A model generated the notes under the pieces. It did not search any database. It saw only the letters and a list, made by a program, of their open reading frames with translations, and was not told the DNA's origin. The position numbers and the translations under genes are program-made. From the NCBI RefSeq assembly GCF_030973515.1, contig NZ_JARGZA010000026.1:1-36521 (forward strand): a stretch of DNA of 36,521 bases. Direction: 5' to 3'. The DNA comes from Jannaschia maritima (lineage in GTDB: Bacteria > Pseudomonadota > Alphaproteobacteria > Rhodobacterales > Rhodobacteraceae). The stretch's first letter is position 1. Each line of letters begins with the position of its first letter. Shown in pieces: positions 149-36,521 of the stretch.

Positions 149-1186
149 TCAGGGGGAGCCGTGCCGCGCCTGCCAGGTCTCGCAGAACTTGGCGAAGAGG
201 GGGTCGGCGTCGGCGGGGGCGGGCTTGCCGGTGTGGCTCCACCAGACGGCGAAGCGCTCCGCCAGGTAATGCGCGTCCCAGCCGGGCGCCGCCAGGCGCG
301 CCGCGTCCAGCCCGTCGGGCGAAACGCGGGCGCGCACCAGCGCCGCGCATTCCGCGGCCTTGGCGGTCGCGCGCGGCATCGTGTTGCGGTTCACGAAGGT
401 CACGAGGTCCTGCTCCTCGTCGTAGAGGACGCGGTAATCGGGCAGGAAGTCGCCCTCGACGATGGGCTTCATCTGGCGGCGGAACTCCCGCAGGGTCCCC
501 TTCGACCCCGACTTCTTGTGCAGCGTGGTCATCAGGAAGGTCCAGCCCTCGTCCTGGCCCACGGCCTTGCGCGCCATCTCGTAGATGCGCCGCTCGATGG
601 GGCGGGACAGGCGGAAGTAGTCGCGGTGCAGCGTCAGCACGTCCATCTCCTCGACGGAGGAGACGACCATGTCGCTGAGCTTCAGCTCCAGGGACTTGAT
701 CTTGCCCGTGCGCTCGCAGGTCCGCATCTTGGCGCCGTCGATGATGCCCATCCATTCGTCCGTGCGCGTCCCCTCGAACAGGATGTTGGTGCGGAACCGC
801 GTCCCGTCGATCCGGTCGATGCTGTCGCACAGCGCGTCGTAGTCGCGCCCGCCCGTGCCGCGCTGCGTGAAGACGAGGAACGCGTAGGGATCGATCTGCA
901 CCCGCTTCGAGATCGGGCGCCCTTCGCGCACGCCGGCGATCAGCTGGGAGATCGCGTAGATGATCAGGTCCTTGTCGTAGATCGTGGGCAGGCCCTTGAT
1001 GGAAGGGCGGAACTCGATCCACGCGTCCTTGTACTCGTAGCGGCGCGGCTCGCGGTCGGGCTTCTTGCTGAGCGAATAGAACGGGTGCTCCATCGAGGCC
1101 ATGTCGTCCTTCAGGATGACGTCGGTGATGTCGCACACGAACAGGTCGCCCTGGGGGTGCTTGATCGGCTTGAGGTGCTCGCTCAT
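149..1186 (-). CDS. repA: Plasmid replication initiator RepA (RPA family)
   Basis: A 345-residue protein recognised as a replication initiator of the RPA type found on alphaproteobacterial plasmids, from the N-terminal block (HPQGDLFVCDI, DMASMEHPFYSLSKKPD), the central RYEYKDAWIEFRPS and the later RPIERRIYEMARK stretch. Such proteins bind iterons and open the origin. The ATG at 1186 is chosen because GGGAGAG lies just upstream and the conserved block starts within ten residues. Longer in-frame extensions run into the iterons and are low-complexity. The gene reads away from a 670-bp origin region carrying six iterons, the classic arrangement for an autoregulated iteron plasmid. No repB or repC is present, so this is not a repABC replicon. 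The family call is firm; the compatibility subgroup is not determined. Confidence 0.93.
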   Translation of the reverse strand: MSEHLKPIKHPQGDLFVCDITDVILKDDMASMEHPFYSLSKKPDREPRRYEYKDAWIEFRPSIKGLPTIYDKDLIIYAISQLIAGVREGRPISKRVQIDPYAFLVFTQRGTGGRDYDALCDSIDRIDGTRFRTNILFEGTRTDEWMGIIDGAKMRTCERTGKIKSLELKLSDMVVSSVEEMDVLTLHRDYFRLSRPIERRIYEMARKAVGQDEGWTFLMTTLHKKSGSKGTLREFRRQMKPIVEGDFLPDYRVLYDEEQDLVTFVNRNTMPRATAKAAECAALVRARVSPDGLDAARLAAPGWDAHYLAERFAVWWSHTGKPAPADADPLFAKFCETWQARHGSP

Positions 1187-1277: not shown

Positions 1278-1790
1278 GTTCGGGAAACACACACGCCCCC
1301 GTGTGTCCTTGTTCGGGAAACACACACGGATGTCCAGGGGTCCGTCGGGAAACACACACCATCGGACTGGATCGGACCGATTCGGATGCCGAAAGAACGA
1401 TTCGCGGGCCCGACGAGGCGACGATGGGCGAATCGGGATTCGTCCATTCGGGCAGACGCGATTCCACGTCGGACGAATCGGGATTCACACACGCTATTTC
1501 GGGAAACACACACGCTCGTTTCGGGAAACACACACGCCCGACCCGAAAATGTATCGCGCATCCCCCTGATGCACATGGATTATTCTGGATGGTCGGATCC
1601 TTAAACACATATTCAAACACATGAAAACACACGCTCCGTATCGAATCGGACGGGACCGAAACGGCGAATCGCAGAAGATTGGATGGGGAATGGGACGATT
1701 CGCGACGCCGACGGCGCGGAACGGGACCCGCCGGACCGGACGGACGCGGCGGGGCGGGCGGGGGCGGAACCGTTTCGGGAAACACACACG
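1278..1790 (+). repeat. Six RepA iterons
   Basis: The 14-base core CGGGAAACACACAC occurs without change at 1281, 1314, 1346, 1500, 1522 and 1776, all in the same orientation. Most copies extend to TTCGGGAAACACACACG. Spacings are 33, 32, 154, 22 and 254 bp, so the closely spaced copies are about two or three helical turns apart. Identical direct repeats beside an initiator gene are the expected RepA-binding sites. Confidence 0.93.
1603..1632 (+). repeat. AT-rich half-iterons (putative unwinding element)
   Basis: AAACACAT at 1603-1610 and 1615-1622, then AAACACAC at 1625-1632, repeat the 3' half of the iteron without its CGGG. They sit in the most AT-rich stretch of the origin. This fits a DNA unwinding element recognised by the initiator as single strand, but that role is inferred. 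Confidence 0.6.
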
Positions 1791-34002: not shown

Positions 34003-34215
34003 ATGCCACTCGGCGCGCTCATGATCGGTGTCCTGTCCGGGCTGACCTGCACCGGCGGGGCGGCCGCGGCCGGCGCGGGGCCGTGGGCGCTGGCGGCCTA
34101 TCCGCTGGGCGGCGTGCTGGGCACCGGCGCGGCCCTGGCCTGGGCCCTGCACCGCCTGGAAGCGGAGGAAGGGCGCGACGCCGGAGGGGATACCATCCGG
34201 ATAGCCGCCGAGTAG
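34003..34215 (+). CDS. Small membrane protein
   Basis: A 70-residue protein with a strong GGAGG before the ATG. It shows two hydrophobic stretches (LGALMIGVLSGLTC, then Ala/Gly-rich WALAAYPLGGVLGTGAALAWAL) and a charged tail (RLEAEEGRD). I know similar small proteins in Rhodobacterales but no function. The last eight codons overlap an 11-bp repeat array. The 239 bases upstream hold no other gene. Confidence 0.6.
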   Translation: MPLGALMIGVLSGLTCTGGAAAAGAGPWALAAYPLGGVLGTGAALAWALHRLEAEEGRDAGGDTIRIAAE

Positions 34216-34232
34216 CCATCGGGTAGCGGCTT
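34189..34232 (-). repeat. Four phased 11-bp units (partition-type motif, inverted orientation)
   Basis: Units start at 34189, 34200, 34211 and 34222: GATACC, GATAGC, AGTAGC and GGTAGC as first hexamers, exactly 11 bp apart. On the other strand these read GGTATC, GCTATC, GCTACT and GCTACC, the same hexamer family as the large array at 36224-36355. The array lies on the far side of the parA operon and just before the toxin-antitoxin operator. Confidence 0.75.
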
Positions 34233-34292: not shown

Positions 34293-34514
34293 ATGCCCGT
34301 TTCCAACCGCGACCGCGTCGCCAAGCGCCGCGCCGCCCTGCGCGCCCAGGGCCTACGCCCCGTCCAGATCTGGGTCCCCGACACCCGCGCGCCGGGTTTC
34401 GGGGAGGAAGCCGCGCGGCAGATGCGCGTGCTGCGCGACGATCCGCACGAGGCGGAGATCACCGAATGGATCGCCGCGATCTACGAGGACCCGGACTGGG
34501 ACTGGGATGCCTGA
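34293..34514 (+). CDS. MazE-like antitoxin (DUF3018 type)
   Basis: A 73-residue protein, recognised from RVAKRRAALRAQGLRPVQIW, followed by VPDTRAPGF and the acidic end ITEWIAAIYEDPDWDWDA. Members of this family pair with MazF/PemK toxins. The basic N-terminal part should bind the operator palindromes upstream and the acidic Trp-rich tail should block the toxin. GGAGG precedes the ATG. It overlaps the toxin gene by eight bases, so the toxin is made only after antitoxin translation. Confidence 0.88.
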   Translation: MPVSNRDRVAKRRAALRAQGLRPVQIWVPDTRAPGFGEEAARQMRVLRDDPHEAEITEWIAAIYEDPDWDWDA

Positions 34515-34845
34515 GGCTCCCTTGCGTGGCGACATCGTCGCCGCCGCCCTGCCGGGAGATTACGGAAAGCCCCGTCCCGTCCTGATCGTGCAGTCGGACA
34601 CGTTCCTGGACTGCCCATCGGTAACGGTGCTTCCCCTGACCAGCGCGATCCGGGACGTCGACCTGACGCGGCAACGGGTCGGGCCCGGACCTCAGAACGG
34701 GTTGCGCCTTCCGTCGGATGTCATGATCGACAAGCCCGTGACGATACCGCGCGGGAAGATCGGCCCCCGCATCGGCCGCCTGGACGCCGCGACCCTGTTG
34801 GAGGTCGACCGCCGCCTGGCGGTCTTCCTGGGCATCGCGGCCTGA
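34507..34845 (+). CDS. MazF/PemK-family mRNA interferase toxin
   Basis: A 112-residue PemK/MazF protein. The N-terminal RGDIVAAALPGDYGKPRPVLIVQSD is the family signature (Arg-Gly-Asp strand and the KPRPVLI strand). It continues with the VTVLPLTSAIR strand and the DKPVTIPRGKIG segment. Such toxins cleave mRNA at short sequences when the antitoxin decays, so the pair stabilises the plasmid by killing or stalling plasmid-free cells. The start at 34507 lies inside the last codons of the antitoxin gene. Length is normal and no key segment is missing. Confidence 0.93.
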   Translation: MPEAPLRGDIVAAALPGDYGKPRPVLIVQSDTFLDCPSVTVLPLTSAIRDVDLTRQRVGPGPQNGLRLPSDVMIDKPVTIPRGKIGPRIGRLDAATLLEVDRRLAVFLGIAA

Positions 34846-34870: not shown

Positions 34871-35278
34871 CTACCCCGCCCCGCCCCGTCCGCGCGCCGC
34901 CTGCTCCGCTTCCAGAAGCGCCACCGCGCGCTCGAAGGTTTCGCCCAGGCCCCAGTCGTTGCCGTCGGCTATAGCGGTGAAGGCGGCGATCGTGTCGGGG
35001 CGCAGCTTCAGGTTCAGCTGCGCGTTGCGGCCCGTGCGGCGGCGGCGGACGGGCGGAACGGCGGCGTCCGCCGCGGGGGCCTGCCGGCCCTCCGCCGCCT
35101 CGCGCGATCGGAAGCCCAGGCGCTCGGCGCCTTCGCGGACCGCCTGCGGCGCGGGCCGCGGGCGGGCGCCGGGCGCGGGCGCCCATTCGGATGGGTCGAA
35201 GCCCGCCAGCCCGGGCGCCGTGGCCACGGGCTCGGAATCCAGGTCGTCGAAGCCCAGATCGGTGCGCACCTTGTTCAT
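34871..35278 (-). CDS. Small partition partner protein (RHH-like, putative centromere binder)
   Basis: A 135-residue protein directly after parA. The ATG at 35278 overlaps the parA stop (TGATG). The first 80 residues are Pro/Ala-rich and look disordered, like the flexible N-terminal arms of ParG or Omega. Residues about 86-126 fit a ribbon-helix-helix fold: a strand (AQLNLKLRP), a helix (DTIAAFTAIADGN) and a second helix (LGETFERAVALLEAEQ). Small ribbon-helix-helix proteins following a short ParA are the centromere-binding components of type Ib partition systems. They bind arrays of short direct repeats, here most likely the 11-bp units at 36224-36355. The fold and DNA target are inferred; no homologous sequence was compared. 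Confidence 0.72.
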   Translation of the reverse strand: MNKVRTDLGFDDLDSEPVATAPGLAGFDPSEWAPAPGARPRPAPQAVREGAERLGFRSREAAEGRQAPAADAAVPPVRRRRTGRNAQLNLKLRPDTIAAFTAIADGNDWGLGETFERAVALLEAEQAARGRGGAG

Positions 35279-35997
35279 CACGCCGCCCCCGCCAGCTCGG
35301 CGGACGCATCCGCATCCGCATCCGCATCCGCGTCGGCCGCGCGCAGCCGCTCCAGCACCTCGCCCGCGAAGGCCTGCGCGTTGGCGCGCGCCTTTCCCAG
35401 GTTGCTGACCTGGCCGTCCGGCAGGTCGGACAGGAGACCGCCATAGTCGAAGATGTCGCGGAACGCCGCGCGCTCCACGATCGTGGTCCGGAACAGCGGC
35501 ACCCCCGCCCCTTCCAGCTGCTCGCGCACGTTACGCAGGGAACGCGACGCGACCGCGGCGGAGGTCCGCGTCAGCAGCACGGCATGCGCGACCTGGCGGC
35601 GCAGCATCCGCTCCTGGTTGCGGATCAGCCGGATGGTCTTGGCCGCGCCCTTCGCGTCCATGGACCCGCCCTGCGTGGGGATCACCACCAGGTCGGCCAT
35701 GCCCACCGCGTGCGCCGCCATCAGGCTCGCCGTGCCCTCCAGGTCGACCACCACGAACTGCGCCGCCGCCTGCGCCTCGGCGATGGCGTCGACGATCCCC
35801 TCCTCCGTGACGCCCTCCACCACGCGAAGCGCGTCGGGCCGTCCCGGCAGGCGGCCCCAGCCCGAGATCCAACGCTCCGGGTCGGCGTCGATCACGGTGA
35901 CGTCCGCGCCGTGGGAGGCCAGCTCGGAGGCCAGCAGGAGCGCGGCCGTGGTCTTGCCGGCCCCGCCCTTGGGGTTGGCGAATGCGATGACGGGCAT
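35278..35997 (-). CDS. parA: ParA family partition ATPase (short, type Ib)
   Basis: A 239-residue ParA. The deviant Walker A KGGAGKTT is at residues 10-17 and DADPERWISGW follows as the A' region (about 38); VVVDLEGTASLMAA carries the Walker B Asp. It lacks the N-terminal helix-turn-helix domain of type Ia ParAs, so repression should fall to the partner protein. It ends in an ADADADADA stretch encoded by hexanucleotide repeats. AGGAGG lies upstream of the ATG at 35997. It moves plasmid copies over the nucleoid. The gene sits between two arrays of the same 11-bp motif and is the last gene before the presumed junction with repA. Confidence 0.95.
   Translation of the reverse strand: MPVIAFANPKGGAGKTTAALLLASELASHGADVTVIDADPERWISGWGRLPGRPDALRVVEGVTEEGIVDAIAEAQAAAQFVVVDLEGTASLMAAHAVGMADLVVIPTQGGSMDAKGAAKTIRLIRNQERMLRRQVAHAVLLTRTSAAVASRSLRNVREQLEGAGVPLFRTTIVERAAFRDIFDYGGLLSDLPDGQVSNLGKARANAQAFAGEVLERLRAADADADADADASAELAGAA
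35306..35332 (-). repeat. Hexanucleotide repeat in parA 3' end
   Basis: Four to five copies of GCATCC (minus strand GGATGC) encode alternating Asp/Ala near the ParA C-terminus. Copy number can change in steps of two residues without breaking the frame. Confidence 0.75.
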
Positions 35998-36223
35998 GGG
36001 GATGCCTCCTGCGATGGGTTGCCTGTACGTCCTCGGACGGGCCTCTCTGGCGGGGGCCGCGCCATGGGGGGAAGGCTAGCCCGCCGAAGGGGCTAGCGGC
36101 TAGCCGTCGCGTATCCACCGCGCCCGGGCGTGGCGCGGCGGCACCGGACGGTCCAGGGGTGGTGGTAGCCGCATGGTACCGTTGGCTTCCGTGGTGGTAG
36201 CGAGGAGGCCGGCGCCGGGGATC
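35998..36223. promoter_or_regulatory. parA leader with scattered GCTAGC and GGTAGC motifs
   Basis: The region upstream of parA holds three GCTAGC copies (36075, 36092, 36098-36103) close to the gene, and GGTAGC (36164), GGTACC (36175) and GGTAGC (36196) further off, with TGGTGGTAGC repeated at 36160 and 36192. These use the hexamer of the main array but without regular 11-bp spacing. The copies near parA could form the operator for autoregulation. No -35/-10 pair was identified. Confidence 0.5.
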
Positions 36224-36355
36224 GCGAGCCGATGGCTAGCGGAACGCTATCCGAAGGCTATCGGATAGCTAGCGGAACGCTATCGTGGCGCTAGCCGTAG
36301 GCTACCGGACGGCTATCCGGACGCCCGCGGACGGCCGTCGGCGGGCGTCCGGGGC
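36224..36355 (+). repeat. Phased 11-bp repeat array (putative partition centromere)
   Basis: GCTA recurs at 36235, 36246, 36257, 36268, 36279, 36290, 36301 and 36312, exactly every 11 bp. The eight units begin GCTAGC, GCTATC or GCTACC. Flanking units at 36224, 36323, 36334 and 36345 keep the leading GC and a C at position six, so about 12 units cover 132 bp. A 17-base stretch, GCTAGCGGAACGCTATC, is repeated exactly 33 bp apart (36235 and 36268). An in-phase direct-repeat array upstream of parA is the expected form of a type Ib centromere, to be filled by the small partner protein. Confidence 0.88.
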
Positions 36356-36521
36356 AAGCGGCGGAACGGATCGGTCCGAGACTCGGAACGTGCTCCGCCC
36401 GCACGGGCCGCCGGACACCACCCCCTGTGTCGGAACGGTCCTGCATACCACCACGTCGACCTCGAGCGGCGCCTCCACGTATGTGCGGGGGGTGGACGGG
36501 GGGGCGAAGGACCGGTCCCGC
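36356..36521. other. Non-coding end region with G-tract repeats at 36482-36503
   Basis: No gene is credible here. CGGAACG recurs at about 36362, 36385 and 36430. At 36482-36503 two 11-bp units, TGTGCGGGGGG and TGGACGGGGGG, follow CGTA and match the array at 18-55, which supports joining the two ends. The last bases form the palindrome ACCGGT and run straight into the window start. Confidence 0.7.

Follow-up and report, generated by a model that had tools for sequence, protein, structure and literature searches.

The locus analysed here raises the question of whether a row of short repeats, phased at 11 bp and lying upstream of a gene for a short ParA, is the centromere (parS) of a partition system and, if so, whether it represents a new type, as a preliminary description of this DNA had suggested. 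The window, by which we mean the whole stretch of 36,521 b, is an entire contig (C18) of an assembly of 3.67 Mb in 45 contigs, and is most likely a plasmid of the RepA type. The parA and parB genes lie at the contig end opposite repA, and the features on which the argument draws are the following.

149-1186, minus strand: repA, replication initiator (PF10134 match)
1282-1790, plus strand: five GGGAAACACACACG repeats adjoining repA, likely replication iterons and different from the GCTANC array
34189-34227, unstranded: minor array beyond parB, four units (GATACC, GATAGC, AGTAGC, GGTAGC) at 11-bp steps (TAGC chain of 3 at period 11)
34871-35278, minus strand: parB, 135 aa, candidate centromere-binding protein, its ATG overlapping the parA stop as TGATG
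35278-35997, minus strand: parA, 239 aa, an ATPase with a deviant Walker A motif and no N-terminal DNA-binding domain
36075-36104, unstranded: candidate operator of three GCTAGC sites (starts 36075, 36092, 36099), closest of all to parA at 77 bp from the start codon
36164-36201, minus strand: two GCTACC half-sites (GGTAGC on the plus strand; starts 36164, 36196) between the array and parA
36224-36229, unstranded: possible ninth unit, GCGAGC, with one mismatch in the five fixed letters
36235-36317, unstranded: main array and candidate parS, made of eight units of GCTANC, which read GNTAGC on the strand of parA
36317-36352, unstranded: 36-bp near-perfect palindrome abutting the array, with 18-nt arms that are 94% complementary and no spacer

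An 11-bp array upstream of a short ParA

The main array consists of eight units of the form GCTA[GTC]C, which start at 36235, 36246, 36257, 36268, 36279, 36290, 36301 and 36312, a step of exactly 11 bp throughout, and which lie 238-320 bp from the parA start on its upstream side. The row of eight exactly spaced units and its position upstream of a short ParA and a 135-residue partner, both put forward in the preliminary description, were borne out, the former far beyond chance: in 200 first-order Markov sequences, each as long as the contig, the longest GCTA chain at any period from 5 to 60 had a length of 2 (179 runs) or 1 (21 runs), and all other 4-mers of the window gave chains of at most 5. 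When the autocorrelation that had been proposed as a check was run over 36224-36329, 11 bp and its multiples took the five highest lags (44, 33, 22, 55 and 11, at 0.69-0.62, against 0.43 for the next), and Tandem Repeats Finder called the tract with periods of 22 and 11 bp. A three-unit pattern is unique to the array in the 3.67-Mb assembly, with six overlapping forward matches and none in reverse, and a reversed control of this pattern gave no match in the same assembly.

The earlier count of twelve units, reached by adding four decayed units in register, could not be upheld. The sequence at 36224 departs from the unit by one mismatch and those at 36323, 36334 and 36345 by two each, and since these latter three fall within the palindrome at 36317-36352, we rejected the twelve-unit reading. 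Sequences with at most one mismatch occupy 1.3% of window positions and those with at most two occupy 12%. The palindrome holds the contig's best at a length of 32 bp (30/32 versus 26 for the next) and has a z of -3.5 as single-stranded DNA, and no T-run follows it. The idea that such a palindrome regularly accompanies the array found no support: among the best 14 of 49 loci, whose palindromes were classed by eye as made of or overlapping array words or otherwise, only those of the window and locus L025 are free of the array word. To the earlier description we add the half-sites nearer to parA (36075, 36092, 36099, 36164 and 36196) and the units of the minor array at 34189-34227. A promoter scan of 35950-36521 returned no sigma-70-like site, against 0.1 expected, a result that is uninformative for such GC-rich DNA.

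ParA carries the Walker motif KGGAGKTT from residue 10 and matches the Pfam families AAA_31 and CbiA above cut-off, and the solved structures closest to it in sequence belong to TP228 ParF and to another ParA in its length class. With 239 residues and no N-terminal DNA-binding domain it has the form of a type Ib ParA, for which an extract of PMC3235114 gives a size range of about 192-308 aa. It also scores 64.3 bits against the Pfam VirC1 model (PF07015; cut-off 24), a resemblance that could suggest a transfer-related site, with the array acting near oriT. However, it scores 63.1 bits against the VirC1 equivalog model, below the cut-off of 313, its best NCBIfam match is a partition ATPase model (126.6 bits, under that model's cut-off of 180), and 18 of the 25 plasmids in which we found the ParB are typed as non-mobilizable, which makes a role in transfer highly improbable.

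The word and its lattice beside homologous parA genes

A tblastn search with ParB matched 25 of 72,556 plasmid records, and a profile scan of genome contigs gave at least 27 loci. Within the window's family, six of 295 genomes matched, its own included (the locus L012 among them lacks a parA hit), and within its genus the only match among 20 genomes was its own; taken together, these counts describe a system with a wide yet sporadic distribution. Eight ParA relatives are 63-71% identical to the ParA of the window, and ten ParB relatives 48-66% identical to its ParB. L012 and L044 were dropped for an absent parA hit, and for counts over 35 non-redundant loci the duplicates L009, L011, L032 and L046 were left out; from a larger set we dropped the duplicates L014, L032, L040, L046, L062 and L065, as well as L077 and L085, for which the upstream DNA was short.

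The preliminary description had held that its proposal would be refuted if homologous parA operons lacked the array, which proved not to be the case. At least three half-sites (GNTAGC or GCTANC), a threshold chosen after some of the sequences had been viewed, are present in 33 of the 35 loci, window included, within the 400 bp that precede parA; the remaining two, L010 and L047, have two and none, respectively. In 31 of these loci the half-site count was reached by at most two of 200 dinucleotide shuffles, and the loci that failed this comparison are L010, L016, L042 and L047, the first three of which are loci with weak word counts whose ParB carries the residues Q-x-N-x-K (Q-N-K) discussed below. 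Pairs of GNTANC over the 35 loci are strongly concentrated at lag 11 (120 versus 0.34 expected), followed by lags 7 (85), 4 (71), 22 (50), 18 (49) and 29 (38), for each of which at most 0.32 were expected, and 146 of 291 forward-reverse pairs of half-sites stand at +4 modulo 11. These lag and strand-pair counts define a family unit GNTAGCTANCn, in which TA steps are alternately 4 and 7 bp apart. When 318 non-palindromic half-sites of the 43 other Q-N-K loci are combined into a consensus, the letters of the neighbouring TA steps are found at 72-85%.

The window's own array is laid out differently, most units having one TA step per turn and all lying on one strand. Its same-strand run of eight is the longest among 44 Q-N-K loci, the runner-up being three; with a relaxed word, the second-longest run is six, on the Cupriavidus plasmid L058, so that long direct runs at 11 bp are rare but not unique. 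What sets the window copy apart is thus the unbroken succession of eight units on one strand. Such a layout could result from a recent local expansion, and the array might then be a functionless tandem repeat, but its 5-bp spacers have diverged while GCTANC was kept, and the word and its phase recur beside homologous parA genes, which together render this explanation barely credible.

The half-site closest to parA lies at a median distance of 41.5 bp (44 loci), which suits part of each array to an operator, and the array could conceivably serve parAB autoregulation only, with the true centromere elsewhere, for example at 34189-34227, where the second 11-bp array exists. An extract of PMC5016525 likewise describes operator and centromere as separable in type Ib, as in TP228. 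Nevertheless, the 238 bp between parA and the main array are a long distance for a repressor site, separate half-sites stand closer to the gene, and of 35 loci a single one (L042) has a lattice array of at least three sites outside the parA upstream region, which identifies the upstream array as the conserved one. We therefore regard the purely operator role as unlikely and return to the centromere below.

Several more distant loci show other arrangements. The Nitrosomonas plasmid L057, whose ParB lacks the TGR motif, holds ten GNTAGC/GCTANC words at lags of 8, 28 and 37 instead of 11, that is, the same word in a different geometry; together with L075 (seven words) and L081 (three), it belongs to the loci that hold the word beside other kinds of ParB. 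The ParA relatives L067 and L069, both in genomes of the window's class, have no GNTAGC word upstream and a strong 14-bp period (z about 11), and their repeats are possibly another type of centromere. In L079, L081 and L086, where ParA is more distant still (32-35% identity), the upstream lags are 12 and 24 bp.

ParB as the probable reader

The 135-residue ParB is encoded downstream of parA, which it overlaps, and no member scanned matched a Pfam or NCBIfam model. A ParB profile compared with solved structures matched ribosomal protein L34 only, at E 0.41 or worse. In the structure model an extended stretch precedes two confident helices, 94-106 and 111-132 (block means 88-93); residues 61-90, among them most of the presumed strand (about 85-92), are modelled with low confidence (51-59), and residues 81-90 have a mean pLDDT of 59, with no strand assigned in this lone-chain model. 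Foldseek returned 44 matches to the model, none of them at E <1.9, and most, to judge by their titles, are ribbon-helix-helix proteins (Arc, CopG, MatP, AmrZ and ParG, 1p94). A ribbon-helix-helix fold is likely, though not proven. In proteins of this fold, alternate residues of the strand read bases, for example in Arc. Across 23 ParB sequences Q87, N89 and K91 are invariant, as are R5 and S58-R59-E60, the residues considered for the arginine finger that type Ib ParBs carry in a flexible N-terminal tail. The length of ParB is slightly above the range of 46-131 aa quoted for type Ib ParB in an extract of PMC3235114.

We then compared the triad of strand residues Q-x-N-x-K with the word upstream of parA. 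From 70 loci, 19 without a TGR-type ParB were set aside, which left 51; the distant ParA relatives (most of L066-L086) have no such ParB and are omitted from this comparison. At least three half-sites within 350 bp are found in 43 of 44 Q-N-K loci and, counting the strict word, in none of the seven loci with other triads (Fisher 6.9e-8), and the subset with ParA below 60% identity gives five of five against none of seven (P 0.0013); these P values assume independent loci, which the loci are not. On the ParA tree this label changes at least twice, one change falling between the well-supported sisters L054 (Q-S-K) and L064 (Q-N-K). The seven loci with other triads mostly stay on the lattice, with lags of 29, 18 and 11 in L054, 22, 29 and 11 in L052, 33, 22 and 11 in L047, 11 and 33 in L063, and 29 and 22 in L055, where 35 and 36 are off the lattice; L056 is weak (11, 29), and L051 has 29 and 30. 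By eye, L052 has the word GTGAGC/GCTCAC, L054 a GACAGC-like word and L055 a GTCTAC-like one. The word change is slight in L051 and L063 (Q-N-R), since both still hold words of the GATATC type.

Judged by these sequences, the family appears mostly to keep the 11-bp spacing while the word co-varies with three residues of ParB, its probable reader. A broader proposition, on which we would place even odds, is that these loci form a family of type Ib centromeres on a fixed lattice (4 + 7 = 11 bp) whose word is set by the ParB triad: Q-N-K would read GNTAGC, Q-S-K, V-S-K, T-S-K and Q-N-R would go with other words, and the window would be an extreme with mostly one site per turn on one strand. If this is true, new plasmid incompatibility arises by word switching while the geometry of the segrosome is kept.

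The covariation also bears on whether RepA binds the array as a set of replication iterons. Iterons are typically direct repeats that recur about once per turn close to a rep gene; however, the RepA of this contig has its own repeats (GGGAAACACACACG, five copies), the word precedes parA in three loci where the stretch shown has no rep gene (L018, L053 and L060), and the word varies with the residues of ParB, with no sign that it tracks rep rather than parA. We consider iterons very improbable.

The array as a candidate centromere

We put the probability at roughly 0.85 that this array serves a type Ib partition system as its centromere (parS) and, together with the nearer half-sites, probably also as its operator. 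Extracts of PMC5016525, PMC3235114 and PMC7308502 describe type Ib systems as having a short ParA and a small ribbon-helix-helix ParB with an arginine-finger tail, and the extract of PMC5016525 places their centromeres upstream of the operon, which is repressed by the centromere-binding proteins; in the window, too, a repeat array lies upstream of the operon. ParB dimers would dock through their two-stranded ribbon on sites of the GNTANC type, and with sites one helical turn apart the dimers would line up along almost one face of the helix, which would let them pack cooperatively along some 85 bp. Through its N-terminal tail, with the invariant S-R-E, ParB may contact nucleoid ParA-ATP and trigger hydrolysis, by which plasmid copies would separate, and ParB bound at the near sites (36075-36104 and 36164-36201) would repress the parAB operon, the former group being the putative operator. 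Of the earlier proposal of a new parS type, the parS part gains from the recurrence of the half-sites beside homologous parA genes. The claim of a new type needs qualifying, since the word and the 11-bp phase are common to a widespread family and thus not peculiar to the window plasmid.

A relative of this family may already be described. The parS of the Agrobacterium plasmid pTAR, reportedly the subject of work by Gallie and Kado in 1987 and Kalnin et al. in 2000, is said to lie upstream of parA, to consist of short palindromes about one turn apart and to be bound by ParB with an operator function. The pTAR ParB is shorter, at about 94 residues against 135 in the window. Should pTAR use the same word, the family would already be known, and only the link between residues and word and the layout of the window copy would be new. 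In an extract of PMC3235114, pTAR is named as a type Ib representative.

Other systems resemble the window in part, according to extracts of the sources cited. ParF-ParG-parH of TP228 shares the short ParA and a small ribbon-helix-helix protein, ParG, but the spacers of parH are AT-rich (PMC7308502), whereas those of the window are GC-rich and the step is 11 bp. The delta-omega system of pSM19035 has a repeat centromere (parS1-3) read by a ribbon-helix-helix protein, with repeats direct or inverted and several sites that overlap promoters; it differs in its heptad repeats and in having its genes in separate transcription units (PMC5016525). The centromere of pCXC100 ParAB consists of direct repeats only, like that of the window (PMC5016525). 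In ParCAB of the Myxococcus plasmid pMF1, ParB represses its operon and binds iterons that lie upstream and downstream as well as in other parts of the plasmid, comparable with 34189-34227 in the window, but the repeat units are similar to AGATGTCT and there is an extra gene, parC (PMC3235114). Among the matches listed in a search of literature titles, none presents the GNTAGC/GCTANC word as a plasmid centromere.

The array is a strong centromere candidate that represents a variant within a known kind, and the family-wide pattern is of more interest than the single array. A mostly alphaproteobacterial group of plasmids, in whose scanned members no Pfam or NCBIfam model recognises ParB, gains a recognisable candidate centromere, and two questions become testable: what determines the word that a ribbon-helix-helix centromere protein selects, and whether the segrosome needs helical phasing rather than the word. 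If the reading is right, the sequences of such plasmids could be used to predict which of them are incompatible in partition.

The minor array at 34189-34227 may be a second ParB site by analogy with pMF1 and pSM19035, which have several. It is oriented opposite to the main array and lies directly before a pair of genes for a MazE-like antitoxin (34293-34514; PF11455) and a PemK/MazF-like toxin (34507-34845, scanned from 34510; PF02452). A further 11-bp tandem, TGTACGGGGGG-like, occurs near both contig ends (17-56 and 36481-36506) and would sit between repA and the GCTANC array if the contig were circular.
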